A stretch of DNA of 64,000 bases from Gammaproteobacteria bacterium. Its GTDB lineage: Bacteria; Pseudomonadota; Gammaproteobacteria; Pseudomonadales; Cellvibrionaceae. The stretch is taken from contig SEBV01000010.1 in the NCBI GenBank assembly GCA_004172865.1, positions 124,001-188,000 on the forward strand, read 5' to 3'. The notes below the pieces were generated by a model. It did not search any database. It was not told the DNA's origin and saw nothing but the letters and a program-made list of their open reading frames with translations. Shown here in pieces: positions 1 to 41,539 of this stretch (the stretch's first letter is position 1; each line of letters begins with the position of its first letter). Made by a program: the position numbers and the translations under genes.

Positions 1-1
1 A

Positions 2-775
2 TTCTGGTGCGATGTGAGTGCAAACAAGGCTATTGCTTCGGTATTTTCAGACCAGGCAGTACATCCATTCCCACAAAATATGTTTTACCGGACCAGCACT
101 CATCACCCATTGAAGCACCTTCTTCTTATTGGGTTTTTATTCGGTGACCTTGAGAGCTTTTATCACGCGTACAACCTTGCAGAAGATCCAGAAGAAGATA
201 TTGCGGGCTGTGAGGCAAAGAATTCAGAAATGAACGCGAAATTAAATCGCAACCAAGGTGCCTTAGAATTACTAAGGGACGGACACAGCCTGAGAAAAAC
301 AGCGCAGATGATGGGTGTCAGTGTTGGATATGTAAAAAAAGTCGCACTGTCCAACCATCTCCCTGTAAAAATTCGCCCCAAAAAAATATATAAGACTGAA
401 ATTCGGACTATATGGCGCAAGCTTTATATCGGGGAAAGTACAGAGAAAATCGCAAAACAGTTTTCAATTTCTGTGGCGGCTGTAGAACATATTTTATCGA
501 CGCATGCTTATCTACCGGAGCTACGAACAAAAATTCGTTTCTTTAAGATGCGAAAAATGCACCGTGAAAAAATGAAGGAATACATGACAGGAAATTCCAC
601 AACAACACGCAACCGGATCAGGTTGGAACTCGGGGCCAGTTATATATGGCTTTTTAATAATGATAAATCATGGCTGTATGAAAACTTACCTGCACGTGTT
701 CCTACTACCCGTAAATCCAATATTGAAAAAACACCTCAAATTTCCACATTGGAAAATGCTCTTCAACCAAAATAG
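2..775 (+). CDS. tnsD: TnsD/TniQ-family Tn7-like transposition protein, C-terminal part (5' end outside window)
   Basis: The frame is open to the left edge, so only the C-terminal ~258 residues are seen. TnsD selects the attachment site of Tn7-like elements by binding a specific chromosomal sequence and recruiting TnsC. What I see: a HPLKHLLLIGFLFG segment like the conserved HP-x-(K/R)-HLLLI stretch after the TniQ domain, two helix-turn-helix-like stretches (GHSLRKTAQMMGVSVGYVKK and GESTEKIAKQFSISVAAVEH), and near the end YIWLFNNDKSWL, which resembles YAWLYRHDRDWL in Tn7 TnsD as I remember it. The gene is followed by a terminator and a repeat-bearing element end, as expected for the last gene of a Tn7-like transposon. 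A shorter GTG start at 14 is possible but not needed. The zinc-binding TniQ part is not visible. The family call rests on remembered motifs. Confidence 0.75.
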   Translation, partial: FWCDVSANKAIASVFSDQAVHPFPQNMFYRTSTHHPLKHLLLIGFLFGDLESFYHAYNLAEDPEEDIAGCEAKNSEMNAKLNRNQGALELLRDGHSLRKTAQMMGVSVGYVKKVALSNHLPVKIRPKKIYKTEIRTIWRKLYIGESTEKIAKQFSISVAAVEHILSTHAYLPELRTKIRFFKMRKMHREKMKEYMTGNSTTTRNRIRLELGASYIWLFNNDKSWLYENLPARVPTTRKSNIEKTPQISTLENALQPK

Positions 776-828
776 TCTTCTTTTTTTCCGCTCAAGCAAC
801 ACACGTTTAGTGACACCGTATCTATGTT

Positions 829-866
829 AAAAAACTCCGGTTTTTTCTTAAAAGCCGGAGTTTTTT
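829..866 (+). terminator. Rho-independent terminator after tnsD-like gene
   Basis: Two 12-nt arms, AAAAAACTCCGG and CCGGAGTTTTTT, flank a 14-nt loop and end in a T run. It lies 54 bases after the transposition gene stop and before the element-end repeats. Confidence 0.8.
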
Positions 867-891
867 CAACTAAAAAAAAGCATAATTTAGC

Positions 892-911
892 AATCTCCAA
901 CTTAATTAAAA
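892..911 (+). repeat. Tn7-like end repeat copy 1
   Basis: Reads AATCTCCAACTTAATTAAAA; it differs from the other two copies at one base (C for T at position 7). Probable innermost TnsB site. Confidence 0.7.
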
Positions 912-945
912 CTGAGACAAAATTTTTTTCTTGTTTTTTGGATAT

Positions 946-965
946 AATCTCTAACTTAATTAAAA
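946..965 (+). repeat. Tn7-like end repeat copy 2
   Basis: Reads AATCTCTAACTTAATTAAAA, identical to copy 3. Probable middle TnsB site, 54 bp from copy 1. Confidence 0.7.
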
Positions 966-1001
966 ATATTGCGTTTTAAGTCATTGATTTTAAATAGGCG
1001 A

Positions 1002-1021
1002 AATCTCTAACTTAATTAAAA
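1002..1021 (+). repeat. Tn7-like end repeat copy 3 (outermost)
   Basis: Reads AATCTCTAACTTAATTAAAA and abuts CCCCACA, the presumed element terminus. The outermost site sits within a few bases of the end, as in Tn7. Confidence 0.7.
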
Positions 1022-1071
1022 CCCCACATTAGCTTTAGCTGTAGCATACGAGGTTATTAAAAACTTAGACA

Positions 1072-1106
1072 AAAATAGGCCTCCAAACTGGAGGCCTATT
1101 TTTTTT
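1072..1106. terminator. Strong bidirectional terminator
   Basis: Arms AAAATAGGCCTCCA and TGGAGGCCTATTTT form a perfect 14-bp stem with a 3-nt loop, with T runs on both strands. It can end the minus-strand CDF gene. It may also be the original terminator of the host gene next to which the transposon inserted. Confidence 0.8.
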
Positions 1107-1216
1107 CAAACTGAGAAAAAAATCACACGCTAGAGATCCAAAAGTTTTTAGGGTTAAAGTGTGTAGTTATTGGGCGAACTTTAAAAGCAGTTTTGTAAAT
1201 TGTAACCCGCCATCTT

Positions 1217-2191
1217 TTATGGATTACCATTCTCATTGTTACTTTGACCTGTCGACATGGCGGCTATGCGCTGGCGCCACATCTGCGTAGTTTGGGGTTT
1301 TACAAAAAGAGTGGTTACATCGAGGTGTGCTAGTTTGATCGCCGCTTCGATTCTAGTTACGCATTGCTCGATCTGTGTCGTGTTTAGATCGTTGTGGAAT
1401 TCAGCACTCAAGGCTGCAATCACTTGGTTGGGCCCCATTTGCACTGTGAAAATGCCGTTCACACTTCGAATATCAGAATCTTCGCGGGCGATGCGCATGA
1501 TTGACTCTCTAACATGCGGGTGCGCCGTTTCACCAATCAGCAGTTCTTTAGTTTCGCGTGCCAGCAGTAATGAAGTCCCCGCAAGTACTATGGCAATACC
1601 GATGGAAGCGATTCCATCGATTTCCGGCATATCCAATACCAAGGCACCCGTGATTCCCAGCGTTGCGATTAGCAGGCCGAGCAGCGCAGCGCCGTCCTCG
1701 AACAACACGATAAAAACACTCGGATCTTTGCTGGCTCGAAACGCATCAAAGTAAGTTTGCTTGCCCTTGGATGCCCGAAATGCCTTGAACGCGACCCACC
1801 AGGATGCACCTTCGCATAAAAACGAAATCGCCAAAACAATATAGTTAATGAGTGGATTCGTTATGATTTCCGGGTTGCGGATGTGCGTAACACCTTCGTA
1901 AAACGATACGCCCGAGCCAAGCGCGAACACGAGCAAGGTAACAATAAAACTCCAGAAATAAAGCTCACGCCCATACCCGAATGGATGACTCTCGTCAGGG
2001 ACTTTTGCAGCCCGTCTCATGCCATAGAGCAGTAGAAGCTCATTAACCGTATCGACAAGTGAATGCACGGCTTCACTGAGCATGGCGGAACTGCCGGTTA
2101 TTGCAGCCGCTACAAACTTAATCAATGCAATCGCGAGATTGCCTGCAAGCGCCGCATATACCACTTTCGTAGTTGTGTTTTTTGACTGCAT
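1217..2191 (-). CDS. Cation diffusion facilitator (CDF) family transporter, ZnT9-like
   Basis: Inner-membrane antiporter expected to export Zn(II) or another divalent metal in exchange for protons. The 324 residues fit the family: about six membrane helices in residues 8-210, then a cytoplasmic metal-binding domain at ~210-300. The metal site of helix 2 is visible as H43-x3-D47 (AVHSLVD). HPFGYGRELYFWSF at 69-82 is the conserved loop of the subgroup related to SLC30A9. Helix 5 has ED (165-166) in FEDGAALLGLLIA instead of the usual HxxxD, which is also typical of that subgroup. It stands alone just outside the transposon end, with a terminator at 1072-1106. Substrate specificity cannot be read from the sequence. 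Confidence 0.9.
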   Translation of the reverse strand: MQSKNTTTKVVYAALAGNLAIALIKFVAAAITGSSAMLSEAVHSLVDTVNELLLLYGMRRAAKVPDESHPFGYGRELYFWSFIVTLLVFALGSGVSFYEGVTHIRNPEIITNPLINYIVLAISFLCEGASWWVAFKAFRASKGKQTYFDAFRASKDPSVFIVLFEDGAALLGLLIATLGITGALVLDMPEIDGIASIGIAIVLAGTSLLLARETKELLIGETAHPHVRESIMRIAREDSDIRSVNGIFTVQMGPNQVIAALSAEFHNDLNTTQIEQCVTRIEAAIKLAHLDVTTLFVKPQTTQMWRQRIAAMSTGQSNNENGNP

Positions 2192-2445
2192 GCTTATTCC
2201 CCAAATGCTATGTGGAATAGAGTCTCAAAATAGTCCTTCTAAAACGGTTCTGTAGGCCACCTAGCGTCGAAAAATAAGCTGGACTAGTAGAGTGACGAAA
2301 CTAAGGTATCTCAGCGGAAAATTTACTAATGGTTTTGAAATTTCGAGGCATTTTCTTTGGCTAATAAGCAAATTTAATTTTTATTTCTGAATCCAGAAAA
2401 TACTTTAAACCTTAAAAGTTGTTTCATTATCTAAGTAAAAAGACA

Positions 2446-2657
2446 CTATTTTTTCTTAGAAAAAACGTGCGCAACAATTGCATTGGCATGACCATGCCCC
2501 ATACCGTGTTCTGATTTAAGTTTGTTTACAATTTCCATATGCTTCATTTCCTTTTGTGACTCAACCAGTGATATCCAATGTTGAATTGGTTGGCCATACT
2601 TGTTTTCAATTGAAGGAAAATAGCTGGCGGGCCTTTTACTTTTTCAGTTGTGGACAT
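2446..2657 (-). pseudogene. DUF4287 small protein gene with a single-base frameshift
   Basis: On the minus strand an ATG at 2657 opens MSTTEKVKGP. The frame must then shift by one base near 2626-2633 (GGCGGGCC on the plus strand) to continue as ASYFPSIENKYGQPIQHW and then MKHMEIVNKLKSEHGMGHGH, ending at TAG 2446. The combined product of ~70 residues matches the small DUF4287 family (ASYFPSIE and HGLGHGHA are its hallmarks, from memory). Neither frame alone gives the full protein: the first runs into a stop and the second has no upstream start. Either the gene lost one base or the sequence has a base-call error in this G/C run. No function is known to me for the family. Confidence 0.7.
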
Positions 2658-2772
2658 AAAATTTTTTCCATATGTCATGATTGACGTATGTAAATTTTTT
2701 CAATGCAATTTTAAGTTGCATTGGTTTAAGTTGCATTGCAATGCATATTCGATCTCGACCGGCTCATTAACG

Positions 2773-3330
2773 TTATTTGGCGTAATGAAACCCAACCACC
2801 CCGGAATCAAATTTTGTTACGCTCAACAAATTAAGTTTTGTTCTTGGTAGATCGTCGAACATTCTTATGCCACCGCCTATAAGGACTGGGTTGACGTTAA
2901 TTACATATTCATCGACAAGATCAAGCCGAGCTAAGGATTGGGTTAAACGTGGGCTACCAAAAACCATCAGATCTTTTTCTGATTCCTGCTTCAGCTTTTT
3001 AATGCCCTCTTCCAGGTTTTCGATCAGATGTGCTTCTCTATTTTCCAAGTGTTTTAAGGTTCGAGAGCAAACAATTTTATTTGCACCTTGATACCACTTC
3101 GCGTGCTGAATTTCTAAACCCCCACTTTCAGGGTCTTCCAGAACATCAGGCCAGTACCCTTCCATCATTTGAAATGTCTTAGGGCCGTAGATTCCAGTTC
3201 CCACTTTCGAAATATATTTTGAAACATGTGCAAATATTGCCTGGTCCATTGTAATCCAATCCATTTCACAATTTGGTCCAGCGGCGAATCCGTCAAATGA
3301 AAGGTGCATAAGCGAGATTATTTTTGCCAC
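2773..3330 (-). CDS. Dihydrofolate reductase-fold family protein (RibD C-terminal domain type)
   Basis: 185 residues with the RibD-C/DHFR-like fold: an N-terminal strand ending in LSFDGFAAGP, a mid-protein GIYGPKTFQMMEGYW segment, and a C-terminal LMVFGSPRLTQSLARLDLVDEY followed by PVLIGGGIRMF. These match the stand-alone 'dihydrofolate reductase family' proteins (YyaP/YwjB type) rather than true folate-pathway DHFR. They are predicted NADPH-dependent reductases with unknown substrates. The gene is divergent from a TetR regulator with a palindromic operator in the short gap, so it is probably the regulator's target. The ATG at 3330 is the only good start. Confidence 0.85.
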   Translation of the reverse strand: MAKIISLMHLSFDGFAAGPNCEMDWITMDQAIFAHVSKYISKVGTGIYGPKTFQMMEGYWPDVLEDPESGGLEIQHAKWYQGANKIVCSRTLKHLENREAHLIENLEEGIKKLKQESEKDLMVFGSPRLTQSLARLDLVDEYVINVNPVLIGGGIRMFDDLPRTKLNLLSVTKFDSGVVGFHYAK

Positions 3331-3363
3331 GAAAACTCTCCTGTAATTTATTAATTTCCAAAA

Positions 3364-3381
3364 TTGTACTGTTCAGTACAA
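3364..3381. promoter_or_regulatory. Palindromic TetR-type operator
   Basis: TTGTACTGTTCAGTACAA has perfect 8-bp arms (TTGTACTG/CAGTACAA) around a 2-bp centre. It lies between the divergent DHFR-fold gene and the TetR gene, where it could repress both. Confidence 0.7.
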
Positions 3382-3404
3382 TTAAAATCAAGTTAAGATG
3401 GCTG

Positions 3405-4007
3405 ATGGAAAAATTAGACACAAAAACCAAGATGATTCATGCGGCGATAGATCTTTTCCATCGCCACGGCGTGAATGCCACTAGTATTGACCAGATATTG
3501 GAAAGCTCAGGAACCGGAAAAAGCCAGTTTTCGCATTATTTCAAAAACAAGGAAGGTCTTGTCCACGCCGCATTAATTTATCTGCACGATGTCATTAGAA
3601 GCGGCAAGGCTCAAACAGGATATGAGATCAATTCATGGAAAGAGATGGATTATTGGTTCCAAAGCTTTATTGATTTTCAGAGGTCCGTTAATTTTGAAAG
3701 ATCATGCCCCATTGGAACCATTGGCAATGATGTGACCGACAATCAGGAAAGCTTGCGAGCAGCTATCGCTGAATTTCTTTTGTGGAGTCGCGGACGATTG
3801 GCACTTTTTTTTGACGAAAGAAAACGCGCCGGAGAGTTACTCAAGCAAGTTAATCCTGGAGCACTCGCTGACTTTTGTATTGCAATTATGCAAGGTGGAA
3901 TGCTTCTCACTAAAATGAATCGTAACAGCGATATGTTTGAAAATGCAGCGGGCCAAGCACAGGCTTATATCAAATCTCTTAGGGTTAAGATCAAGCGAAA
4001 AAATTGA
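3405..4007 (+). CDS. TetR/AcrR family transcriptional regulator
   Basis: 200 residues from the ATG at 3405 (MEKLDTKTKMIHAAIDLFHR). An upstream in-frame ATG at 3324 would add 27 residues of low-complexity sequence encoded across the operator, so I prefer the shorter start. The N-terminal helix-turn-helix at ~26-46 (TSIDQILESSGTGKSQFSHYF followed by KNKEGL) is typical. The C-terminal ligand-binding half contains CPIGTIGNDV, common in TetR_C proteins that sense small electrophiles or drugs. It probably represses itself and the divergent reductase through the palindrome at 3364-3381. The ligand is unknown. Confidence 0.88.
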   Translation: MEKLDTKTKMIHAAIDLFHRHGVNATSIDQILESSGTGKSQFSHYFKNKEGLVHAALIYLHDVIRSGKAQTGYEINSWKEMDYWFQSFIDFQRSVNFERSCPIGTIGNDVTDNQESLRAAIAEFLLWSRGRLALFFDERKRAGELLKQVNPGALADFCIAIMQGGMLLTKMNRNSDMFENAAGQAQAYIKSLRVKIKRKN

Positions 4008-4117
4008 AGGAACCGAGAGCAGAAACACACTTATATTTTTCTAGTTCCAAAAAAATAACTAATGATTAGACATGCGTTCGTAAAGTTATCACTATTTTTC
4101 GAGAACTTCGGACACAC

Positions 4118-5305
4118 CTACAACGAAGAAACATCTGAAGAAACTTGCTCACGAAATTGGCTGGGAGTAACACCAACCACGCGCTTAAAATAAGTATTAA
4201 AAACGGATTTGCTGTTAAAACCTACCTCTAAATAAATATCCATGATGGTCTTTTGATTTTTGCCATTATCAGACAGCAAGCGCTTGGCTTCTTCAAGGCG
4301 AAATGCATTTACAAATTCATAGAAGTTAGTCTGATGATTACGTTTAATCAGCATTGTTAGCTTCTTAGGTGGCAAGTCTATTTTTTTAGCGAGACTATCA
4401 AGACTAATATCAGGGTCAGCATAAAATTTTTCATCGACCATTACATGCTGCAACTTGGCGATTATTGCATCATCCGATACAGGTGGTTTCTCTTCAGCGT
4501 CTAGCAAACCAAGCTCGGTTACCGAAACCAGATTATCGAAAGATGTAAAACGCAAAAAAATCAAAACCGTGATAACGATTAAATTCAAATAATAACTGCC
4601 GATTCCGAAGAAACTCAGAAGATCAGCATCAGCCAGTGGGCTTGTTGCCGTTAACAACTCTTCGAGCTTGATGATCAGTAAAACCAAATCCCAACCAAAC
4701 AGAATCACAAAACTACCCAGCATAATCTTTAACCAAAGCGATTCACTGGGGCGTAAATTTGCATACTCTTCTTTAAGCTGGCCGGTATAGCCCAACACCA
4801 AATACACACAAAGAAGCGCGTAACTTAAACGTAATAACCGCCCAGCCGCTTCAAAGCAAAGGTAAGTCGCCGAATAAGCAATCTCCTGACTTTCTACTAA
4901 ATGATATTTGGTACTCGAATCCTTACTGTAATAAATGAAAATCATCCCAATAAAATAAAGTACTACTGGGATCAAGTGATAGGCATCCGACGACTTGAGC
5001 TTGAAGTTTTTATAGACAGTTGAGCGAAAAAACAGATAGAGCAATGGGCCATCTAAAAAGTATGCATAGCTGCCCCAAAAAAATAAATTGGGCGATATAT
5101 TCAATACCCAAAGTCTAAATTGCTTACCCCAGAAAATAAGCTCATGAAGGGGAATTAGAAAATGGCATATTAAAAAGCCCGTGAGCAGCAAGGTGCTAAT
5201 CGAACCATGCTTACGGGTGAGCAGTAATAGCGCCGAAAACAGTAAGCATTCGAACGCGGTAAACGCCATGGTTAAATCGTGAAAATTAAATAGCACAGTA
5301 TCCAT
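4118..5305 (-). CDS. Membrane-embedded AraC family regulator
   Basis: 395 residues. The N-terminal ~250 residues hold about seven hydrophobic helices, and the last ~100 residues form an AraC-type DNA-binding domain with two HTHs (ISLDSLAKKIDLPPKKLTML and TIMDIYLEVGFNSKSVFNTY, then FKRVVGVTPSQFRE). Regulators of this build sense a signal in or across the inner membrane. It is divergent from the GH30 gene, with 401 bp between them, so control of that glycosidase is the natural guess. No ligand can be inferred. The ATG at 5305 (MDTVLFNFHDL) is supported by the hydrophobic segment that begins soon after it. Confidence 0.88.
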   Translation of the reverse strand: MDTVLFNFHDLTMAFTAFECLLFSALLLLTRKHGSISTLLLTGFLICHFLIPLHELIFWGKQFRLWVLNISPNLFFWGSYAYFLDGPLLYLFFRSTVYKNFKLKSSDAYHLIPVVLYFIGMIFIYYSKDSSTKYHLVESQEIAYSATYLCFEAAGRLLRLSYALLCVYLVLGYTGQLKEEYANLRPSESLWLKIMLGSFVILFGWDLVLLIIKLEELLTATSPLADADLLSFFGIGSYYLNLIVITVLIFLRFTSFDNLVSVTELGLLDAEEKPPVSDDAIIAKLQHVMVDEKFYADPDISLDSLAKKIDLPPKKLTMLIKRNHQTNFYEFVNAFRLEEAKRLLSDNGKNQKTIMDIYLEVGFNSKSVFNTYFKRVVGVTPSQFREQVSSDVSSL

Positions 5306-5706
5306 GCTCTAGCAGCTCTTATTAATTTATTTTCAGGTGAACTTTAGCATAGCAAGGCGGATTAAGTGGTTCGGATAAAGTCATAAGCTTGCGTGCAAAA
5401 GAACTCACGCTTAAAAACCCTGATATTTAGCAGGTTTAGACTCACTCACGCATCAATCTCCTAAAGCTGCAAGTTTAGCGTTTGATAACCGCGTTCTAAA
5501 TAAAGACAGTGATAACGCCCTTCATCCGAACCCGAACATTCAAAACTCATGCTAATTTTTAGCGCTGAATTTCATCTCGATTTTTATAAAACGCAATGTA
5601 ACTGATTAAACCAGACTGGTTCATCGGCAATCTTCATCCGTACATCTTCCAACAATACTTTTTCAAGCAGCACTTTCCCTAACAACACTTCGCAAGCGAG
5701 GCACCT
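5306..5706. other. Intergenic region between membrane AraC regulator and GH30
   Basis: 401 bp expected to carry two divergent promoters. I find no convincing palindrome, RNA or small gene. The GH30 ribosome site is GAGG, six bases before the ATG at 5707. Confidence 0.5.
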
Positions 5707-7221
5707 ATGCAAATAACAAGACGCAACTTTTTCGCAACCGTTGGAACAGTCACCGCAATAGCTTCTGCACCACGACTTATGGCTGGCTCAACTTCAACCA
5801 GCGTCGCACCCATCAATGCGAAGAATACTGACGATAAAGACATCAAGTGGTTTAGCTCCACACAAAGGGCAAACTGGACCAGCTTAGCTACGCCTAAGAT
5901 TACTGATGCAAGCCAACTTACGCCGTTCGATTACAACTTCGATATCCAACTGGATAAGCCAAAACAAACCATCGAAGGTTTTGGCGCCGCCTTCAGCGAA
6001 AAAGGTTGGGAAGCACTTACAGCACTCGACAGCAAAAAACAGTCAGCCGTGTTGCAACTCTTATTTGATGCTCATGTTGGAGCCAATTTCAATCTGTGTA
6101 GAACACCTATAGGCGCAAATGATTTCGCGTTGAAATGGTATAGCTACGATGAAACTGAAGCTGACTTTGACCTAAAAAACTTCTCTATCGATAACGATAA
6201 AAAAACCTTGATTCCCTTTATACAAGCAGCACAAAAAATAAGACCTGATCTGGCCATTTGGGCATCGCCCTGGAGCCCACCAACCTGGATGAAAAAGAAC
6301 AAGCATTATGCAATGACACCCAATTGGCCCGGTAGCGTTGTTAATGGCCTGCAACCGCATCAAGTCGGTGAAGAAGGCAAAGATTACTTTATTCTTGAGA
6401 CCAAATATTTAAAAGCTTATGCAAAATACTTTAGAAAATACGTTGAAGCATACCGTAAGCAATTCATTAATATTTTTGCTGTCATGCCGCAAAACGAATT
6501 TAATTCCGCGCAACCCTTTCCTAGTTGCTGCTGGACACCAGAAGGCTTAAATCAATTCATTCCCATACTCGCCGAAGAGATGACTCCGCTGGGAGTTGAT
6601 GTAATGCTCGGAACACTTGAGCGTGGAAATGCCGCCTTGGTAGATAAGATCATGAGCAAGCCAGCCTCTGCAGCGGTGTTGAAAGGTGTTGGTGTGCAAT
6701 GGGCTGGCAAGCACGCCCTACCATTGCTTAAAAATAATTATCCGCAACTCAAGATTTGGGGAACGGAACAGGAATGTGGCGCAGGCACTAACGATTGGCA
6801 CTATGCAAAGTATGCGTGGAATCTCATCAAAACCTTTTTAAATAATGGAGCATCGGTCTACCAATATTGGAATATGATTTTGAGTACCGACGTACATAGC
6901 ACATGGGGCTGGCCACAAAATTCATTGATTACGATTGATACAAAGAATAAAACCTTTTCATTGAATCCTGAATATTACGTCATGCGGCATTTGAGTGGAT
7001 TGGTACAGCCCGGCGCAAAATTTATTCCTGCATCCAGCTTTACCGGCTATGAAAATCAATTGGCATTTCTAAACCCGGACGGTTCGGTGGCTATCATCAT
7101 TCAAAATGAAATGGCTGAAGAATTAACTGTGAAAGCAAAGCTTGGCTCTAAACTTGTTGAAATGAAGTTAGCGCCAGATTCATACAATAGCCTGCTAATT
7201 CCAAAGCAAGCATACAGCTAG
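5707..7221 (+). CDS. GH30 family glycosidase (glucosylceramidase/beta-1,6-glucanase-like), Tat-exported
   Basis: 504 residues. The N-terminus has a twin-arginine signal (TRRNFF at residues 4-9, hydrophobic run, cut near Ala26), so it should be exported folded. The rest is a GH30 (beta/alpha)8 barrel with a C-terminal beta domain: GFGAAFSEKGWEAL (91-104), FNLCRTPIGANDF (128-140), WASPWSPPTWMK (185-196), acid/base Glu264 in PQNEF, and probable nucleophile Glu354 in WGTEQECG. Family members cleave beta-linked glucose in glucosylceramide or beta-1,6-glucan; fungal beta-1,6-glucan is a plausible substrate here, but the choice is inference. Alone in its transcription unit, opposite an AraC-type membrane regulator. 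Confidence 0.88.
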   Translation: MQITRRNFFATVGTVTAIASAPRLMAGSTSTSVAPINAKNTDDKDIKWFSSTQRANWTSLATPKITDASQLTPFDYNFDIQLDKPKQTIEGFGAAFSEKGWEALTALDSKKQSAVLQLLFDAHVGANFNLCRTPIGANDFALKWYSYDETEADFDLKNFSIDNDKKTLIPFIQAAQKIRPDLAIWASPWSPPTWMKKNKHYAMTPNWPGSVVNGLQPHQVGEEGKDYFILETKYLKAYAKYFRKYVEAYRKQFINIFAVMPQNEFNSAQPFPSCCWTPEGLNQFIPILAEEMTPLGVDVMLGTLERGNAALVDKIMSKPASAAVLKGVGVQWAGKHALPLLKNNYPQLKIWGTEQECGAGTNDWHYAKYAWNLIKTFLNNGASVYQYWNMILSTDVHSTWGWPQNSLITIDTKNKTFSLNPEYYVMRHLSGLVQPGAKFIPASSFTGYENQLAFLNPDGSVAIIIQNEMAEELTVKAKLGSKLVEMKLAPDSYNSLLIPKQAYS

Positions 7222-7481: not shown

Positions 7482-7778
7482 ATGTTTAAAGAATTAGTTA
7501 AAGCCGATTTGGAATCACAATACAAAGGTTTCAATATTTGTTTTTGGACGATGTTGGTTATCGCTACGGTAACATCCTTGTTAGGCAGTCCATATTTGGC
7601 GATTGGATTGGGAACTTTAGGTTTGGTAAGTGGTGCGATTGGCCAAATAAAATTGATATTGATTAATCAGCAAAAGTTTTTAGCAAATCAGGACACATTC
7701 CTCGCGAATCAGGATAAGTTTCTTGCTAATCAAAAACTGTTTCTTGAGCAGCTTGAATCACTAAAAGCAAAATCTTAA
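7482..7778 (+). CDS. Small membrane protein with C-terminal heptad repeats
   Basis: 98 residues, not recognised as a named family. Residues ~20-35 and 42-62 form two hydrophobic helices. The tail is a nearly exact 7-residue repeat, FLANQDT-FLANQDK-FLANQKL-FLEQLES, preceded by a degenerate NQQK unit, which should form a short parallel coiled coil for self-association or partner binding. A GGAGAG ribosome site lies seven bases before the ATG. Flanked by the GH30 terminator and a hairpin at 7798-7840, it looks monocistronic. Function unknown. Confidence 0.75.
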   Translation: MFKELVKADLESQYKGFNICFWTMLVIATVTSLLGSPYLAIGLGTLGLVSGAIGQIKLILINQQKFLANQDTFLANQDKFLANQKLFLEQLESLKAKS

Positions 7779-8046: not shown

Positions 8047-9162
8047 ATGCTCCAGCGCAAACTCTTTTTAAGCCTTACCTTAATTCTCGGCATCACCACC
8101 ACTGCAAGCAGTTTGGCAGAGACCGTTAAAGTAGTTGCAAGCGGTTATACCGATACAGGTGGCGAAGGCGTTTATGGTTTAACGTTTGATACTGCAACCA
8201 ATAAATTCGGCCCAATACAATTATTGACTAAAACTAACAATCCTTCGTTTGGATTGCACAATAAAAATGTTTGGTATTTTGTAGATGAAGATAAAGAAGG
8301 CCAACTGCTTAGCTTTAGCCAAAATGAAAAAGGTGAATTGAATTTACTTCAAAAATCATCAGTGTCCGGTAAGTGGCCTTGCTATATCTCCGTACGCAAA
8401 GACGGCAAATATGTTGCAGTTGCAAACTATGGCTCTGGAAATATTGCAGTATTCGAATTGGATGAAAAAGGCGTACCAAAAGGTAAGCCACAATTAAAAC
8501 AGCATGAAGGCAAAGGGCCCAACGCCGAGCGTCAGGAATCCGCTCATGCACATTGGGCAGGCTGGTCGCAATTAAACGACGCAAATAAAACCACAGGCAT
8601 TTACGCTATAGATTTAGGTGTGGATAAAATATTTTGGTACCCACAAGATTCAAAAGGCACATTAGCCGAAGGGCAAGTTGCCTATAAAGCAGCACCGGGC
8701 GACGGCCCTCGCCATTTAGCAATTCATCCACAAAAGCCTTGGGTTTACGTTTTAAACGAATTGGGCAACACCTTGTCAGTTACGCAACAAGACACCAAAG
8801 GTCATTTAACTGAGATTCAAAAAGTATCTGCATTACCCGCAGACTTTAAAGGTAAAAGCACCGCCGCTCATATTGTTATCAGTGCGGATGGAAAACATCT
8901 CTATACATCGAATCGCGGTGATTTAAACAGTATTTCCGTATTTAATATTGCAGACGATGGCAAAGTAACTCTCGCACAAAACATTAGCAGCCAAGGCAAA
9001 CTACCCCGCTTTTTTCTTTTGCTAGAGGATGCGAAAAAAATGTTAGTAGCTAACCAGGATTCGAATAATTTGGTGGTGTTAAATATTTTAGCTAACGGTC
9101 AGCTCGAATATTCCGGCGCGCAAACGCAAATCCCAAAGCCAACATTTTTAGGGCTTCAGTAA
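8047..9162 (+). CDS. Secreted lactonase-family seven-bladed beta-propeller (Pgl-like)
   Basis: 371 residues with a signal peptide (hydrophobic 6-20, cleavage near SSLAE at ~25). The mature part matches the lactonase family related to YbhE-type 6-phosphogluconolactonase: repeated blades such as YISVRKDGKYVAVANYGSGNIAVF, GDGPRHLAIHPQKPWVYVLNEL and AHIVISADGKHLYTSNRGDLNSISVF. Family members open sugar lactones or act on related esters. Periplasmic location argues against a role in the cytosolic pentose phosphate path; oxidised sugars (aldonolactones) are more likely substrates, which is inference. A strong terminator follows at 9181. Confidence 0.85.
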   Translation: MLQRKLFLSLTLILGITTTASSLAETVKVVASGYTDTGGEGVYGLTFDTATNKFGPIQLLTKTNNPSFGLHNKNVWYFVDEDKEGQLLSFSQNEKGELNLLQKSSVSGKWPCYISVRKDGKYVAVANYGSGNIAVFELDEKGVPKGKPQLKQHEGKGPNAERQESAHAHWAGWSQLNDANKTTGIYAIDLGVDKIFWYPQDSKGTLAEGQVAYKAAPGDGPRHLAIHPQKPWVYVLNELGNTLSVTQQDTKGHLTEIQKVSALPADFKGKSTAAHIVISADGKHLYTSNRGDLNSISVFNIADDGKVTLAQNISSQGKLPRFFLLLEDAKKMLVANQDSNNLVVLNILANGQLEYSGAQTQIPKPTFLGLQ

Positions 9163-22823: not shown

Positions 22824-23531
22824 TTAGGTAGCGCTCTGTAACAGCATGTTGCGAATATGACCGATTGCTCGAGTCGGGTTAAGGCCTTTCGGACATACCG
22901 CAACACAGTTTTGGATACCATGGCAGCGGAATACGCTAAAGGGGTCATCCAATTTTGACAGGCGTTTTTCAGTCGCCAAATCACGGCTATCCGCCAGGAA
23001 ACGATAGGCTTGTAACAAGCCAGCTGGGCCGATGAACTTATCTGGATTCCACCAGAATGATGGGCAGCTGGTTGAGCAGCAAGCACACAAAATACATTCG
23101 TACAAACCGTCCAGCTTCTCACGATCCTCTGGAGACTGTAGCCTTTCAATAGCTGGGGCCGGCGTGTCATTTTGCAAGTAGGGTTCGATCTTTTTGTACT
23201 GATCGTAGAATTGGGTCATATCAACAACCAAATCACGAATCACTGGTAATCCAGGCAATGGACGCAAAATTAATTTGCCGCTACCACCGGTCGCTTCTGA
23301 AATTGGCTTGATACATGCCAAACCATTTTTGCCATTGATGTTCATACCATCTGAACCGCACACGCCTTCACGACATGAACGACGATAAGCCAAACCTTCG
23401 TCCTGCGCTTTCAATAATTCCAGCACATCCAGAACCATCAAATCTTTACCACCGGTATCCAACTCGTAAGCTTTCATGTACGGCGCTTTATCGGTGTCCG
23501 GGTTGTAGCGATAAACTTCAACTTTTAACAT
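22824..23531 (-). CDS. sdhB: Succinate dehydrogenase iron-sulfur subunit
   Basis: 235 residues. N-terminal ferredoxin domain with the 2Fe-2S cysteines (CREGVCGSDGMNINGKNGL followed by AC) and C-terminal domain with the 4Fe-4S (CILCACCSTSCPS) and 3Fe-4S (CHGIQNCVAVCPKGLNP) ligands. Passes electrons from SdhA flavin to ubiquinone at SdhCD. Starts 15 bases after sdhA in the sdhCDAB operon. Confidence 0.97.
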   Translation of the reverse strand: MLKVEVYRYNPDTDKAPYMKAYELDTGGKDLMVLDVLELLKAQDEGLAYRRSCREGVCGSDGMNINGKNGLACIKPISEATGGSGKLILRPLPGLPVIRDLVVDMTQFYDQYKKIEPYLQNDTPAPAIERLQSPEDREKLDGLYECILCACCSTSCPSFWWNPDKFIGPAGLLQAYRFLADSRDLATEKRLSKLDDPFSVFRCHGIQNCVAVCPKGLNPTRAIGHIRNMLLQSAT

Positions 23532-23546: not shown

Positions 23547-25319
23547 TTAATAAACACGTTTCTTAGGCTGGAAGGCGTCCATAGTGTGCGGTGTGAAATT
23601 CACTGCACGTTTGGTAACACGCTTTTCGCCGGGGAAATAAAGTGAATGACATAACCAGTTGGCATCATCACGATCTTCAAAGTCATCACGCGCATGAGCA
23701 CCGCGAGATTCTTTACGCTCTTCTGCCGCAATTGCAGTAGCTTCAGCAACTTCTAACAAATTTTGCAATTCCAGAGCTTCAATGCGCGCGGTATTGAATG
23801 CATTGCTCTTGTCGGTAATCGATACGTTTTCTATACGCTTACGCAGTTCGGCCAATTGCTCAATACCCTTCTGCATAAACTCACCTTTGCGGAATACGCC
23901 AAAGTAATTTTGCATAATGGTTTGCAGCTCTTTACGCAATACCGCGGCGCTTTCTCCGGTATTGGACGTATTCACTTTGTTCAAACGCGCCATAGCTTTA
24001 TCGATATCAGCTTGTGTTGCGTTTTTATGTTCAACACCTTCACGCAATGCTTTTTCGATGTATATGCCCGCTGCACGACCAAACACCACCAAGTCGAGCA
24101 ATGAGTTGCCGCCTAAACGGTTAGCGCCGTGTACAGATACACAAGCAACTTCACCACAGGCAAACAAACCGTCGATAACAATATCAGTACCGCTGGCATC
24201 TTGCGTTAAGGCTTGACCATGAATATTTGTCGGAACACCACCCATCATATAGTGACAGGTAGGAACCACAGGAACTGCAGCGTAAATCGGATCAACGTGT
24301 GCGAAGGTACGCGATAATTCACAGATACCTGGCAACTTGCTTTCCAGCACTTCTTCACCCAAGTGATCGAGCTTGAGAAGCACGTGATCACCATTTGGAC
24401 CACAACCGTTACCCGCCAAAATTTCAAGAACCATTGAGCGCGCAACTACGTCGCGTCCTGCAAGGTCTTTGGCGTTAGGAGCATAACGCTCCATAAAACG
24501 CTCGCCGTTTTTGTTGATGAGGTAGCCACCTTCACCACGGCAACCTTCTGTTACCAACACTCCAGCTCCGGCAATACCGGTTGGGTGGAACTGCCACATT
24601 TCGATATCTTGCACCGGGAAACCTGCGCGTAACGCCATACCAATACCATCGCCGGTATTGATATGGGCATTAGTAGTAGACGAATAAATACGCCCTGCAC
24701 CACCGGTTGCCAATACAGTTGCCTTGGCTTTTACATAAACGGTTTCGCCATCTTCGATGTTAATCGCAATAACACCAACCACAGCGCCGTCAGCATTCTT
24801 CACCAGGTCTACAGCAAACCACTCGTTCAGGAATACGGTTTTACTTTTAATATTGCCTTGGTAAAGCGTGTGCAATAACGCATGGCCGGTACGGTCCGCT
24901 GCGGCACATGTACGAGCTGCCTGACCACCCTCACCAAAGTTTTTGGATTGTCCACCGAAAGGACGCTGATAAATACGGCCTTCTTCAGTACGTGAAAATG
25001 GCAAACCCATGTGTTCCAATTCGAAAACAGCTTCTGGACCAACCGAGCACATATACTCGATAGCATCCTGGTCGCCGATATAGTCTGACCCTTTTACGGT
25101 GTCATACATGTGCCAGCGCCAATCATCGTTTGGATCAGCACTTGCGATTGCACAAGTGATACCGCCCTGAGCAGATACTGTATGCGAACGGGTTGGAAAT
25201 ACTTTGGTAATTACCGCCGTTTTGTATCCAGATTGAGCCAATTGCAGCGCAGCACGCATGCCAGCACCGCCACCGCCAATTACAATACCGTCAAAAGAGA
25301 TTGTGCGAATGCTAGCCAT
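23547..25319 (-). CDS. sdhA: Succinate dehydrogenase flavoprotein subunit
   Basis: 590 residues. FAD-binding [14 protein letters not shown] at 15-28 and covalent FAD ligand His46 in [10 protein letters not shown]. Active-site features include [20 protein letters not shown] and the late [19 protein letters not shown]. Oxidises succinate to fumarate on the cytoplasmic face of the membrane. Its ATG overlaps the sdhD stop in TAATG, so translation is coupled. Confidence 0.97.
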
Positions 25320-25690
25320 TAATTAAAACCCCAAAGTATTTCGATGCCCCATACCAGGTAAGTTACGGAAACTCCACCCAATACTACTTGCGCGAAAATG
25401 CGCAATACGGTGGCTTTATTGCCCATCAAACGTACGGTTAAATAGTCGGTTAAGACTGCCCACAAACCAATCCAGGCATGGGTAATAAAAGAAAGCAAAG
25501 TAGCAAAACTGAATACGCGAACCCAAAGCTGACTAAACAAGGCTTGCCATTGTTCGTAGGTTAGATCTGGATTTAACGCTAAATAACCAGTGATAAAAAT
25601 AACATAAGCGGCCATTACAACGCCGCCAACTCGCTGGATCAACCAATCGTAGAGGCCGCTGCGACCAAAACTCGTTACTGAAGTTACCAT
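25319..25690 (-). CDS. sdhD: Succinate dehydrogenase membrane anchor subunit
   Basis: 123 residues from the ATG at 25690 ([20 protein letters not shown]), which overlaps the end of sdhC; an ATG at 25696 would add two residues. Three membrane helices, with the conserved [11 protein letters not shown] and [13 protein letters not shown] segments; the histidine and neighbouring acidic and tyrosine residues belong to the heme b/quinone region. Stop overlaps sdhA start by one base. Confidence 0.94.
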
Positions 25691-26058
25691 ACCCATACTC
25701 CCAACAACACGATCAATATGATGGCAATCGTCAGCGCAATCTTCGCGCCCAATTGACCACCTTTAAGGCTTTCGCCTATACCGGAATCCATTAACAGATG
25801 ACGAATACCCATCACGCTGTGATACGCCAAGGCGGACAACACAGACCAGAGTACAAATTTGTAAATGGGATTAGCCAAAGCATCGCGAACAGCGGCAAAG
25901 CTTTCCTGGGAATCCAGGCTTGAATCGAGTATCCAGAGGAGAACGGCTACACCGGCAAAAAGGAAAATACCGGAGAAACGATGAAGAATGGAAACATAGG
26001 CGGTGATAGGAAGCTTAATAGTAGAAATATCGAGGTTGACAGGTCTTTTCTTGTTCAC
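25684..26058 (-). CDS. sdhC: Succinate dehydrogenase cytochrome b556 subunit
   Basis: 124 residues with three membrane helices. Conserved RPVNLDISTIKLPITAYVSI (overlapping RP-x-SP-type start), LHRFSGI quinone-site motif, and AYHSVMGIRHLLMD with the heme-ligand histidine. First gene of the sdhCDAB-suc cluster, divergent from gltA. Overlaps sdhD by seven bases. Confidence 0.96.
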   Translation of the reverse strand: MNKKRPVNLDISTIKLPITAYVSILHRFSGIFLFAGVAVLLWILDSSLDSQESFAAVRDALANPIYKFVLWSVLSALAYHSVMGIRHLLMDSGIGESLKGGQLGAKIALTIAIILIVLLGVWVW

Positions 26059-26117
26059 AGTTTAATTCACCTTTGAGCCCATCGCGGGCAGGTTATAAGA
26101 ATGAGCATCAGCATTCA

Positions 26118-26300
26118 CTAAAATGTAAGATTTTGGGGCAAGGCCGACGCATCCTGCAAGTCGCGCAGCATTATAGAGAGGGAACCTAGGAAATACAAAC
26201 AAAAAGCTGCCTCAAAAGCCAAATCATGGGGATGTTTTTCATACTGAACGCAATAGTTCAATTTTTCTGCAAGATCAATGACTTCCTTGGGTTTTAACAC
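26118..26300 (-). CDS. Possible 60-residue hypothetical protein upstream of sdhC
   Basis: Minus-strand frame opening with GTG (MLKPKEVIDLAEKLNYCVQY by start-codon convention), with a mixed, protein-like composition and one hydrophobic segment (AAFCLYFLGSLSIML). It is not antisense to another gene and ends 60 bases before sdhC. The ribosome site is weak and I recognise no family. It could be a real small protein or a chance frame in the sdhC leader. Confidence 0.35.
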   Translation of the reverse strand: MLKPKEVIDLAEKLNYCVQYEKHPHDLAFEAAFCLYFLGSLSIMLRDLQDASALPQNLTF

Positions 26301-26726
26301 TAATTTACCGTTCTATAAAAGCGCATAAAACAACATCAAATACCCAGCTTGGTGCAAAAATAAGCAGTGAGCTCGAACTTGTCGACAAGTCGCTTATTTT
26401 GATAAAAAAAACTTTTAACAAATACGCCCTATTTATTGGCAAAAACTTTCGTTGCGGCAATTAAGTCATCTATAATGCCGACCGCAAACAAACGGCAAGG
26501 TCGGAAATCGACTGGTCTGAAAAGTAGCTATAAAAGAGCTACATAAGGTTATACATCACTTGAGCATGCAACTTGCAGGTGAACAGCGTCTAAGTCGTAC
26601 TTTGCAATGATGGCCTATTCTTGACCAGCTCCTGAGGAAATGAATATCACCATAGCGATTCACGGGATTTACACTGGGCACATAACTCAAGCACATTAGT
26701 CCTACTAGTAAGCACAGGAGTCAGTA
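26301..26726. other. Divergent sdhC/gltA promoter region
   Basis: 426 bp. A TATAAT at 26471-26476 on the plus strand is a candidate -10 for gltA, without a clear -35 at 17 bp. This would leave a ~250-nt gltA leader, in which I see no known riboswitch. GGAG eight bases before the gltA ATG is the ribosome site. Confidence 0.45.
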
Positions 26727-28007
26727 ATGACTGACAAGAAAGCACACCTAACGATTGATGGTATAGATAGCACGATTGACCTACCTATTTATCCCAGCAG
26801 TGTCGGACCGGACGTTATCGACGTCACCAGTATTACCAAGAATGGCTTTTTCACGTTTGACCCGGGCTTTATGTCCACCGCCGCATGCGAATCCAAGATT
26901 ACTTATATTGATGGCGACGAAGGGATTCTGTTACACCGTGGTTATCCTATCGAACAACTTGCTGTCTCCTCTGATTACATCGAAACTAGTTACCTCCTTC
27001 TCAACGGCGAATTGCCAACTCCCGAGCAAAAAGCCGAATTTGCCCAAGCAATCAAAGACAATTCTACTGTTGACGAATCTGTCATCAACGTTATCAAAAG
27101 CTTCAAACGTGAAGCGCACCCCATGGCCATTTTGTGCAGCGCAGTTGCGGCATTGGCAGGCGTGTATCACGATGAAATTGACATCACTAATGCTGAAAGC
27201 CGCAAGCTAACTGCCTATCGTTTGATTGGTCAGATGCCAACCCTGTCGGCTTTGGTATACAAACACCGTAAAGGTGAAGAATTTATTGCACCGGATAGCA
27301 GCCTGGATTACGCCGAAAATTTCCTGAATATGACCTTCGGTACTGCAGGCAAAGCGCCTAACGTGAGCAAGACTCTCGCTAAAGCAATGGATCGTATTTT
27401 CGTTCTGCATGCTGACCACGAACAAAACGCATCTACCTCTACCGTACGCTTGTCTGGCTCATCAGGCACCAACCCATTCGCGGCAATTGCTGCCGGTATT
27501 TCTACACTTTGGGGCCCTGCTCACGGCGGCGCCAACGAAGCGGTATTGGAAATGCTGGAAGAAATCGGCACTGTGGAAAATATCGAAGCTTGCGTTGCTC
27601 GTGCGAAAGACAAAACTTCAGGCTTCCGTTTAATGGGCTTTGGTCACCGCGTTTACAAAAACTTTGATCCACGCGCAAAAGTAATGAAACAAACCTGCGA
27701 CGAAGTCTTGGGCGAATTAGGTTTGGAAAACTCTCCGTTGTTGGCAATTGCTAAACGTCTTGAGCAAATCGCATTGGAAGATCCTTACTTCATCAGCAAA
27801 AAACTTTACCCGAACGTGGACTTCTATTCAGGCATTATCCTGAAAGCCATTGATATCCCCACTGAAATGTTTACTGTGATTTTCGCCTTGGGCCGTGCTG
27901 TTGGTTGGTACTCTCATTGGGATGAAATGGTTAGCACTTCGTATAAAATCGGCCGTCCACGTCAGTTGTACACCGGCAGTGTGAAACGCGATTATCCAAA
28001 AAAATAA
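26727..28007 (+). CDS. gltA: Citrate synthase (type II)
   Basis: 426 residues, the length of the NADH-sensitive hexameric gammaproteobacterial enzyme. Condenses acetyl-CoA with oxaloacetate. The catalytic triad is recognisable: His in [12 protein letters not shown], His in [16 protein letters not shown], and Asp in [11 protein letters not shown]. An N-terminal small domain with [16 protein letters not shown] is typical. Divergent from sdhCDAB-suc, followed by a strong terminator. Confidence 0.97.
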
Positions 28008-28032
28008 ACCGTTAGATTCATTTAACGATTTT

Positions 28033-28067
28033 AAAAAACCGCCTCTCGAAAGTTAGGCGGTTTTTTT
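28033..28067 (+). terminator. Terminator after gltA
   Basis: AAAAAACCGCCT ... AGGCGGTTTTTTT hairpin with a short loop, 25 bases after the stop. Confidence 0.85.
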
Positions 28068-28194
28068 ATGTTGGATCATAGTGCCGTAACTTATTCATAA
28101 TTGCTTCAGTATTCCCAGCCTAGTATCTTGCACAAATCTACCCTGCACCTTCTATACTCGCTTCACCATCCCATAACAAAAAAGGAATCCTTGC

Positions 28195-31100
28195 ATGCTC
28201 AAGCTAATTGCACGTTTATTTGGAGTTATTACTTTTCTTGCCAGCATAAATTGCATCGCTATTGAAGTCCCAAAATCTCTTGAAGAATGGAAACCTTGGG
28301 TATTGGAAAAACATCCCGAAATCAACTGCCCTGTTCTCTTCGATAGCGCTGAGCGCGATTGCGTATGGCCGTCTGAATTGCGTATCGACGCAAACGCAAA
28401 TAGCGCAAAATTTTCGCAACGAGTCGAAGTTTATAAAAGCGAATGGGTTGAGTTACCTGGTCACGCCGGACTTTGGCCGCAGGATGTTACTGACAACAAT
28501 GCAAGAATTCCTGTTCGCGATAATGAAAACATTCCTGAAGTTTACTTAAATGTTGGCGTACACGAATTGAAAGGTGAAATTCGCTGGAGCGAAATGCCGC
28601 GCACACTGCCCGTTCCGGAACAAACTGGAATTATTCGATTAACCCTCAATGGAAAAACAATTACGGCACCAGCACTGGAAGGTAATAATCAACTCTGGCT
28701 TACCGCAAGTGAAAAACAAAATGCCACAGCGCATCAAGACTCATTCGATCTGCGAGTGTTCCGCAAAATTGATGACACAATTCCATTGCGACTTACTACA
28801 ACATTACAAATCGATGTAAGTGGAAAAGAGCGCGAAGTGCAACTCGGACAATTTTTATTAAACGGATTTACTCCAGTAGAATTTACTAGCCAATTACCCG
28901 CAAGAATTGAAAAAGATGGAAACCTGCGTGTGCAAGTTAAATCCGGCTCATGGGAAATAATACTCGTCAGCCAATCGAACGCGCCCATTAAACAACTGTC
29001 ATTTAAAGCCAATTCAGAGTTGTGGCCGCAGCAGGAGATTTGGGTGTTTTCGGCAGAGCGTCAGCTTCGTAGTGTACAAATATCTGGCGCACAAACTATA
29101 GATCCTCAACAAACTCAACTGCCCGAAGATTGGAAGAATTTACCGGCTTATTTAGTTACACCAGAAACTCATTTCATTATGGAAGAATTGCAACGCGGTG
29201 AAAGTAAATCTACTGGTAACGAGTTACGACTTAATCGCGATGCGTGGTTAAGTTTTAACGGCGAAAAATTTATTTTCAATGATCAAATCCATGGCAATAT
29301 TCATGCATCACGATTGGAAACTATCAAACCTGTTGAACTTACACATGCGCAAATTAATGGCCAATCACAACTCATTACACAATTAGCGAATAATCCAAAT
29401 TCCGGGATTGAAATTCGTAGCCGCGATATAAATGTTAATGCTGTAAGTCAATTGGCCAAGTCATCGACAATTCCAGTGACCGGTTGGAACGAAGAATTTA
29501 ATTCGGCATCCACCCAATTACACTTACCACCGGGTTGGTCGCTGTTAACCGCGACAGGCGTGAGCAGCGAATATGGTAGCTGGGTTTCGCGGTGGAGTTT
29601 GTGGGATATTTTCGCAGTGCTGATTATCGTAATTGCAATTGCTCGTGTTACCAAACCTGCTTATGGCCTGCTTGCCGCTGCAACTATTATTTTGATTTAT
29701 CAGCGCACAGGCGCACCGGTTTTTATTTGGCTTAACCTTATTGCTGTACTTGCACTCGCCAAATTTGTAACAGGAAAATTCAAAAACTTTATTCAACGTT
29801 ACGCCTACGTTAGTTTTTTATTGCTCGCATTAATTACACTTCCCTTTGCGGTGCGTGAAGCAAGAATATTTGTTAACCCGCAATTGGAACATGAATATTT
29901 CTGGGATTGGTCGTCATCATTTATATCCACATCCGACAAAAACAAGATCGCCTATATTAACGATTCAGTTAATTCTCCACCTCCTGCGCTTGATTTCGTA
30001 CCCAACGCACCAAATGCAGCACCAATGATGTCAGAGCAAGTAGAGACGGAAGAAGTTGTAGTGACTGGTGCACGTGCGGAACGCAAAGAAAAACGAGACG
30101 TCGAGAAATATTCAAATGCGCAATCTGCATCGACGTTACATCGCACGCCAGGAGTACAAATTCAAAAATCCTATGATCCAAATCAACAAACTCAAACCGG
30201 CACTGCAGTACCTAATTTCAATCTCAACACAATCAATCTGCAATGGGATGGTCCAGTGAAAGCCGACGAGACAACAACTCTCGTGTTAGTTTCGCCTTGG
30301 ATAAATCGACTAGGCCATTTACTTTCCGTATTATTACCTTTGGGATTAGCAGGAATTTTGTTGCAACAGGCGGCGCTGGTTTTTGATAAGAAATTTTCTT
30401 TGCCAACACTTAATAAAAAAGCAATTTCCGGAATTCTGCCAACTTTGATTATCGCCAGTGTTTTGTTCTCACCGGCTGAACCGGTTAATGCTCAAGTGCA
30501 AATAGATCCGGCAATTTTAAAAGAATTGGAGACTCGCTTAACGAAAGCGCCAAAATGTTTACCAAATTGCGCAGCAATTGAAAGCGCAAATATTGCGGTA
30601 AAAGAAGATCGATTAACCATTGAACTTGTTGTTCACAGTAACGATTTAATTTCACTACCCTTACCTGCTGATCACGAACAATGGTGGCCAGACCAAGTGA
30701 CAGTAGATGACAAAGCTGCAACGCTGGTACAAACATCAGATAAAGAGTTGTTAGTAAGTTTGCCGAAAGGCAGACATAGCATCAGCATAAAAGCAGATCT
30801 GCAAGGGCGTGATGCTCTCAATTTAAATTTTCCAGTGCAATTACATAATGTAATTTCATCGACCAGCGGCTGGGAAATCAGCGGCATTCCTACTCAAGAG
30901 CAAGCAAGTCTGTCGTTACAATTACAACGGGTGGAGCAAGACAAAAATTCGACCAAAGCTGAACATTTACGCGCTGACCCTATAACGCCTTTTGTAATTG
31001 TTAAGCGTGAATTAAATTTGGGATTGGAATGGACTCTCACCACTACCGTGACACGCGTTGCACCTGAATTTGGCGCTATCAACATTGAAATGCCTGCAAT

Positions 31101-40974: not shown

Positions 40975-41539
40975 AGGGCTTTCTCCAAAAAATGACTTTA
41001 TTAATAATCACACTTGCCTAATTTTTTTTGCGACTTAAAAAATTTATCGCAATATTTTTTTCCAAATTTTTTAATTCAGAATTATTGGCATGAGCACATC
41101 CCCTAGAGCAAGCGCTGTGCCAAACGAAATATTTGTATGGATTAGTTATATTTTATTTAGATAAATCAATCGCTTATAAAAACCAATAATTCATTAAAAA
41201 ATTTTCACCAAAAATCATTAACGCACTTTGTTGGTGACGCCTCAAAAATTTTCGCGCCAAAAATACACATTTTAAATAAAAATCACGCACCAATAGTTAA
41301 CAAAAAACTGCACGGCCATTTATTGAAATGAATCAATAAATTGCATTTTTACTTTGACTAATTTTCTGATTATTTTAGATGCACCAATGATGCGCAAAAA
41401 ACGAAAAGTTATTTATTACTTTTAGTAAGAGCGCTTGGCAAGCAACGTAAAACTTAATTTGTTCCATAAAAAAAGCTGCCGAAGCAGCTTTTTTGTATGC
41501 GTTCAAAATACTTGTTTGAACACTTAATTACGATCTCGG
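40975..41539. other. Intergenic region between porin and GH3 genes
   Basis: 565 bp, very AT-rich. It holds the porin promoter (not resolved) and the GH3 terminator at 41467-41494. A weak AAGCGCTGTG word near 41110 partly resembles the GH3/glk operator but is not palindromic over its full length. No gene seen. Confidence 0.45.
41467..41494. terminator. Terminator after GH3 gene
   Basis: AAAAAAAGCTGC/GCAGCTTTTTT with a short CGAA loop, 46 bases beyond the minus-strand stop. Confidence 0.85.

Follow-up and report, generated by a model that had tools for sequence, protein, structure and literature searches.

A very large Tn7-like transposon in a Cellvibrionaceae genome and its apparently undescribed landing site behind gcvP

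Tn7-like elements are marked by arrays of about 20-bp transposase sites that are inverted between the two ends, as described in the main text of a survey (PMC8649781), in which 6,549 such elements had median lengths of 14–29 kb and the longest reached 140 kb. The main text of PMC10293859 counted 998 dual TniQ-TnsD loci. The plasmid pAsa4b of Aeromonas salmonicida was already noted to carry Tn7-like genes, with a flanking inverted repeat of 36 nt that is imperfect (PMC5088629, excerpt). The features of Tn7 used here for comparison and mechanism are those given in PMC11406308 (excerpt).

In this study, we found that three direct repeats in a Cellvibrionaceae genome (5.25 Mb, 229 contigs) are very probably the dispersed TnsB sites at the left end of a Tn7-like transposon, which measures at least 126 kb and lies 8 bp past the stop codon of gcvP. 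It is most likely of the cut-and-paste type, as the homology of its TnsA and TnsB would predict. Its landing site is apparently undescribed.

Left-end repeats and the tns genes

The window, which is the whole stretch of 64,000 nucleotides that was analysed, corresponds to C30:124001-188000. The sequence AATCTCYAACTTAATTAAAA occurs in it three times (Table 1), at steps of 54 and 56 bp, and no further copy within 3 mismatches was present in the window beyond 892-1021. The chance expectation is 0.04, and none of 100 dinucleotide-preserving shuffles reached three matches. A separate repeat search of the window returned the same repeat family. The preliminary description of this DNA had read the three repeats, just behind a TnsD-like gene and its terminator, as the left end of a Tn7-like element. 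The same positions were recovered here, the gene matched the TniQ and TnsD families of Pfam and a hairpin follows it; the left-end reading agreed with the tns genes on the left, the inverted copies elsewhere in the genome and the TTAGC at both ends. Rfam gave no match in window positions 1-3000.

Table 1. Features of the window and its surroundings, and related elements behind gcvP
Feature	Position or length	Strand	Basis	Duplication
tnsA, tnsB, tnsC, tniQ	C30:117869-123274, left of window		ORFs, profiles	
tnsD, 3' part (whole gene C30:123267-124775)	window 1..775 (C-terminal part 2-775)	+	ORFs; Pfam TniQ and TnsD; 8glu match	
Terminator-like hairpin 3' of tnsD	829..866	.	17-nt arms, 94% complementary, 4-nt loop	
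Inner left-end repeat, presumed TnsB site	892..911	+	motif and repeat search; spacing alike in relatives	
Middle left-end repeat, presumed TnsB site	946..965	+	motif and repeat search	
Outer left-end repeat, presumed TnsB site	1002..1021	+	motif and repeat search	
Terminal bases of the element, end ...ACA	1022..1028	+	boundary set by 5-bp duplication and inverted terminus TGT	
Target site duplication	1029..1033	+	twin at C197:310100-310104 behind gcvP	TTAGC
98-aa gene, native gcvP-downstream flank	7482..7778	+	78% identical to gene directly behind gcvP in congener G026	
Gene read as lactonase-like, next in same flank	8047..9162	+	75% identity over 285 aa to second gene behind gcvP in G026	
G003 element (Cellvibrionaceae bacterium AOL6)	28,254 bp			CTTCT
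G059 element (Marinimicrobium agarilyticum DSM 16975)	124,136 bp, one contig			GCCCA
G491a element	35,753 bp			GTTTG
G725 element	30,988 bp			GCATA
G743 element	29,339 bp			AAGCG
G865 element	16,623 bp			GGTTG

Directly left of the repeats, the ORFs form the gene row tnsA-tnsB-tnsC-tniQ-tnsD (C30:117869-124775), encoding proteins of 280, 726, 469, 324 and 502 aa, respectively. Pfam recognised TnsA-N, AAA_22, TniQ twice and TnsD once in this row; tnsB had no Pfam match, and none of the five proteins passed an NCBIfam cut-off. By profile or single sequence, the proteins matched the solved Tn7 structures of TnsB (7pik, E 1.7e-72), TnsD (8glu, E 3.6e-30), TnsC (E 9e-21) and TnsA (E 6.7e-13). The tnsA, tnsB and tnsC genes that had been expected left of the window are present 2.6 to 7 kb left of the repeats, and TnsB, for which an alignment with known families had been proposed, matches that of Tn7. 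Residues D306, D396 and E434 of TnsB, presumed to be its DDE triad, were invariant in the five members compared. Visual inspection of the genes beside the operon revealed no TnsE. A long hairpin (GTGGATTGAG...CTCAATCCAC) is located about 130 bp upstream of tnsA (L007:11660-11735).

The opposite end behind gcvP

Genome-wide, only three other copies of AATCTCYAACTTAATTAAAA were found within 3 mismatches. They are inverted, lie at C197:310112-310170, about 1.05 kb from the contig end, and are packed at steps of 21 and 18 bp. They are preceded by gcvP (TIGR00461 above cut-off), and the order at the junction is the gcvP stop codon, TTT, TTAGC and then the element start TGTCTCC. At the window junction, ...CCCCACA is followed by TTAGC, so that these 5 bp adjoin the element at both ends. 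An opposite end with inverted copies had been predicted within 100 kb to the left; such copies were found, though none of them within that distance on C30, since all three are on another contig. The known part of the element already spans 126 kb, and the assembly breaks inside it. The known bases amount to 1,114 on C197 and 125,028 on C30, i.e., 126,142 bp, plus the gap between the contigs.

The flank on the window side was compared with congeners in 21 genomes of the genus, own genome included. Among 20 congener loci, one had the flank genes of the G026 type (Table 1) in this order; in the window they stand about 6.3 kb away from the element, with other genes between. This interval (window 1217-7221) contains genes for a CDF transporter, RibD-like, TetR, AraC and GH30-like proteins. 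The CDF protein had weak matches only (21–24%), in 3 of the 20 congeners, which suggests that the interval may be a further insertion. From the TTAGC at both ends and the gcvP-type flank order on the window side, we conclude on sequence grounds that C197 and C30 probably carry the two ends of one insertion. We also considered a right end close to tnsA on C30, sought with a 16-base core (up to 3 mismatches), and rejected it: the matches were at chance level (143 forward and 114 reverse; 167 and 160 in the backward controls), and among the matches listed there was no cluster besides the two known ones.

Relatives at gcvP and the TnsB group

Relatives of the same build, with TnsB 21–38% identical, were found directly behind gcvP. 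All seven elements at this position (G000, the window's own, G003, G059, G491a, G725, G743 and G865) have perfect 5-bp duplications, and in six of them, from 16,623 to 124,136 bp long, both ends are on one contig. In the six relatives, the end next to gcvP has a packed triple (steps of 18–21 bp) and the opposite end a dispersed one (steps of 49–59 bp). Counted from the sequences of these six and G000, the insertion point is 17–20 bp past a conserved Tyr codon near the gcvP end. As relatives in other bacteria occupy the same spot, the group gives the impression of a family that has a safe landing site to itself.

Other loci were less complete. G491 has a second element in tandem (G491b, 26.9 kb) without a credible perfect duplication. 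In G003, a mini-element of about 1.6 kb (C2:222084-223714) stands in tandem behind the full element, with its own packed and dispersed triples (L056:19084-19145 and L080:582-714) and without tns genes. G832 has a packed array behind gcvP, with tnsB on another small contig; taking the assumed terminus as correct, its insertion would be at 14 bp. Packed triples behind gcvP with no tns genes found near them were seen in G008, G009 and G826 (L165, L092, L166-L168). Neither a left end nor a tns gene was found in the 17.6 kb read in G008 and the 60 kb read in G826, and the G009 contig ends early; the only TnsB of G826 is a more distant one on a separate contig. These arrays may be solo ends, or they may belong to elements that carry cargo only or extend beyond the stretch read.

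Within 130 bp behind gcvP, packed triples (up to 5 mismatches) were present at 9 of 46 usable loci versus 1 of 407 control windows, the former not being a frequency because the loci were partly picked for TnsB matches. A tenth locus (L050), with 6 mismatches, looks like chance. In G027, two right-end-style repeats of about 20 bp and of a different sequence lie directly behind gcvP (C1, L085:810-850). No left end was found there in 20 kb with two motifs, and a repeat search of 5.3 kb gave nothing clear; the pair may be what is left of another Tn7-like element at this site.

Perfect hairpins within 200 bp inside the right end were present in six of the nine elements, with none of 200 mononucleotide shuffles as good in each case, and none was found in G003, G059 and G491b. 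These hairpins may stand in for a terminator which the insertion has moved away from gcvP. A hairpin is also visible by eye in a glmS-type right end of G027. Tn7-like elements of the glmS type with a single TnsD (L059, L061, L063) occur in the same bacterial family, which thus harbours two Tn7-like lineages that differ in landing site.

These loci bear on other readings of the window element. Its ends come from different contigs, and packed arrays for which no left end was found in the stretch read also stand behind gcvP in G008 and G826. Both points would fit a smaller Tn7-like element of the tns genes and some neighbours, with its own right end decayed and the C197 array left as the solo end of a vanished element. 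We regard this as very improbable, considering that the outer flanks carry the identical TTAGC, the window-side flank is of the gcvP type, the G059 relative extends over 124,136 bp on one contig, and no right-end cluster appeared elsewhere on C30 among the matches listed. It is very improbable that two or more elements stand in tandem behind gcvP, the C197 end coming from one and the window end from another: the assembly, contig gap aside, has no further end arrays within 3 mismatches and TTAGC matches at both ends, although tandems behind gcvP are known from G491 and, as a mini-element, G003. Short AT-rich repeats can arise in intergenic DNA, but regulatory or chance repeats behind a gene are a scarcely credible explanation in view of the shuffle test, the paired inverted ends, the TTAGC duplication and eight further elements that are built alike. 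We keep to the left end of one large transposon behind gcvP in what follows.

The family-level search found a TnsB homologue in 27 of 144 genomes (own included). Among those placed relative to gcvP, three belong to the gcvP group, and six others with TnsB and gcvP on one contig (G093, G097, G027, G005, G015 and G135) have them at least 360 kb apart. At the class level, homologues were found in 8 of 369 genomes, own included; in the 7 others, gcvP was adjacent in G491 and on other contigs in 6. At the phylum level, 17 of 398 genomes, own included, had a homologue, the 16 others being 3 located earlier, 10 located now, and G716, G737 and G812, which were left out. Among these 10, no more than 10 kb separated TnsB and gcvP on one contig in G725, G743 and G865; they were on different contigs in G832, and they were not adjacent in 6 (2 far apart on one contig, 4 on other contigs). 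In draft genomes, a TnsB on another contig is compatible with adjacency to gcvP. A rule that distant TnsBs are never at gcvP was not clean, given the packed arrays behind gcvP in G832 and in G826, which is one of these 6. The contig search returned no match with the TnsB sequence alone and two loci (G059 and G003) with the alignment as query. An automatic end-finder missed one of two positive controls (G743, whose ends were found by the motif scan), and its misses therefore mean little.

In the TnsB tree, the nine elements were split from 18 other rows at 100/99, with G491b and G865 on long branches; G832 was left out of the trees. The TnsBs of G491a and G725 are nearly identical and not independent. 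The small TniQs of five elements grouped at 97/99. The TnsDs of the gcvP group did not resolve as a single clade in the TniQ/TnsD tree, where the G003 TnsD joined two other rows (82/87). All nine elements have a small TniQ (304–339 aa) and a TnsD (477–554 aa), and the five tns genes are the only genes common to all of them. A search for an element-encoded partner of the small TniQ ended without a candidate: besides the tns genes, nothing was common to more than three of the nine elements (E 1e-8; pairs common to G491a and G725 only left out).

Cargo, targeting and known systems

The known length of the element is mostly cargo, and no housekeeping genes were obvious by eye in C30:1-118000. Profile matches included a PifA-like NTPase, LmuB and LmuC (Lamassu), a UvrD-type helicase scoring as GajB, a PDC-S28 helicase, a radical SAM protein, a HipA-like protein, LigD, an isoamylase and a citrate-type transporter. 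HxsA, HxsB and HxsC were assigned by similarity to annotated plasmid genes, and by our reading of the translations Ku, HxsD and stress proteins are probably also present. His-Xaa-Ser cargo lies at C30:22738-26096 (L068) and, in pAsa4b, at 23638-28244. Compared with congeners, the cargo sample L007:1-8600 gave short scattered pieces only, in 10 of 10 genomes, among the matches listed; the sample L070:12000-20000 had matches in 3 of 8, at separate places, with ligD pieces in two. A cargo left of the window, possibly with a CRISPR-linked or defence module, had been proposed; defence genes are there. No CRISPR link turned up: no array was seen, and no 20-mer occurred three or more times in C30:1-126000.

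By analogy with Tn7, TnsB would bind the end repeats and join the ends to the target, and TnsA would cut the other strands, giving cut and paste together with TnsB. TnsD would read the coding sequence of gcvP at its conserved end, and TnsC would bridge TnsD and the transposase side. The expected outcome is an insertion 17–20 bp past the conserved Tyr codon that leaves gcvP intact. In the most likely division of roles, the gcvP 3' end is the target of TnsD, and the conserved small TniQ serves another route. This second route might lead, for example, into conjugative plasmids, to which we give less weight. We propose only tentatively a two-route family, with insertion at the gcvP 3' end directed by TnsD and insertion into conjugative plasmids by the small TniQ, which would need neither TnsE nor CRISPR nor any other partner encoded by the element; this TniQ would then have to read the target itself or use a host factor.

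If this account of the element is true, the gcvP 3' end is an apparently new landing site for Tn7-type elements, and the recognition code could be learned from the TnsD set of the gcvP group. The group is also a clean case for asking about the role of a second, small TniQ, because the five tns genes are its sole shared genes. At 124 kb and at least 126 kb, respectively, the G059 and window elements approach the 140-kb maximum given in the main text of PMC8649781.

We found no report of gcvP as a Tn7 site in the literature covered, which was mainly openly accessible main text. Nothing was found joining TnsD with gcvP, or Tn7-like with Cellvibrio or with glycine dehydrogenase, and looser combinations had no gcvP among the matches listed. 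The main text of PMC8649781 does not contain "gcvP", and that of PMC10293859 contains neither "gcv" nor "glycine" and does not mention the attachment site of the gcvP group. An earlier report of this landing site is possible. The dual loci of PMC10293859 (main text) resemble the present one in having one TnsD of more than 400 aa and one shorter TniQ.

The plasmid pAsa4b, conjugative according to PLSDB, carries the same five tns genes, with the packed triple located at 23119, the dispersed one at 40980 and a duplication GATCT. Its element is similar to ours in the TnsABC-TniQ-TnsD set, the build of the ends, the TnsB group and the similar HxsA/B/C cargo, but it is 18,010 bp long, plasmid-borne and inserted inside an ORF, not at gcvP. 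The end of this ORF has no gcvP-like sequence, which indicates that a member can live off gcvP.

The window element has the Tn7-like features of TnsABC homologues, a TniQ/TnsD selector, inverted arrays of about 20 bp and a 5-bp duplication. It differs from Tn7 in the extra small TniQ, the repeat sequence and the cargo between the right end and tnsA, and no TnsE was recognised by eye beside its operon. It shares with Tn7 the TnsA, TnsB, TnsC and TnsD homologues, the dispersed left-end sites, the packed right-end sites beside the attachment gene, the 5-bp duplication and the insertion just 3' of a conserved gene, which is glmS for attTn7 and gcvP for the window element.
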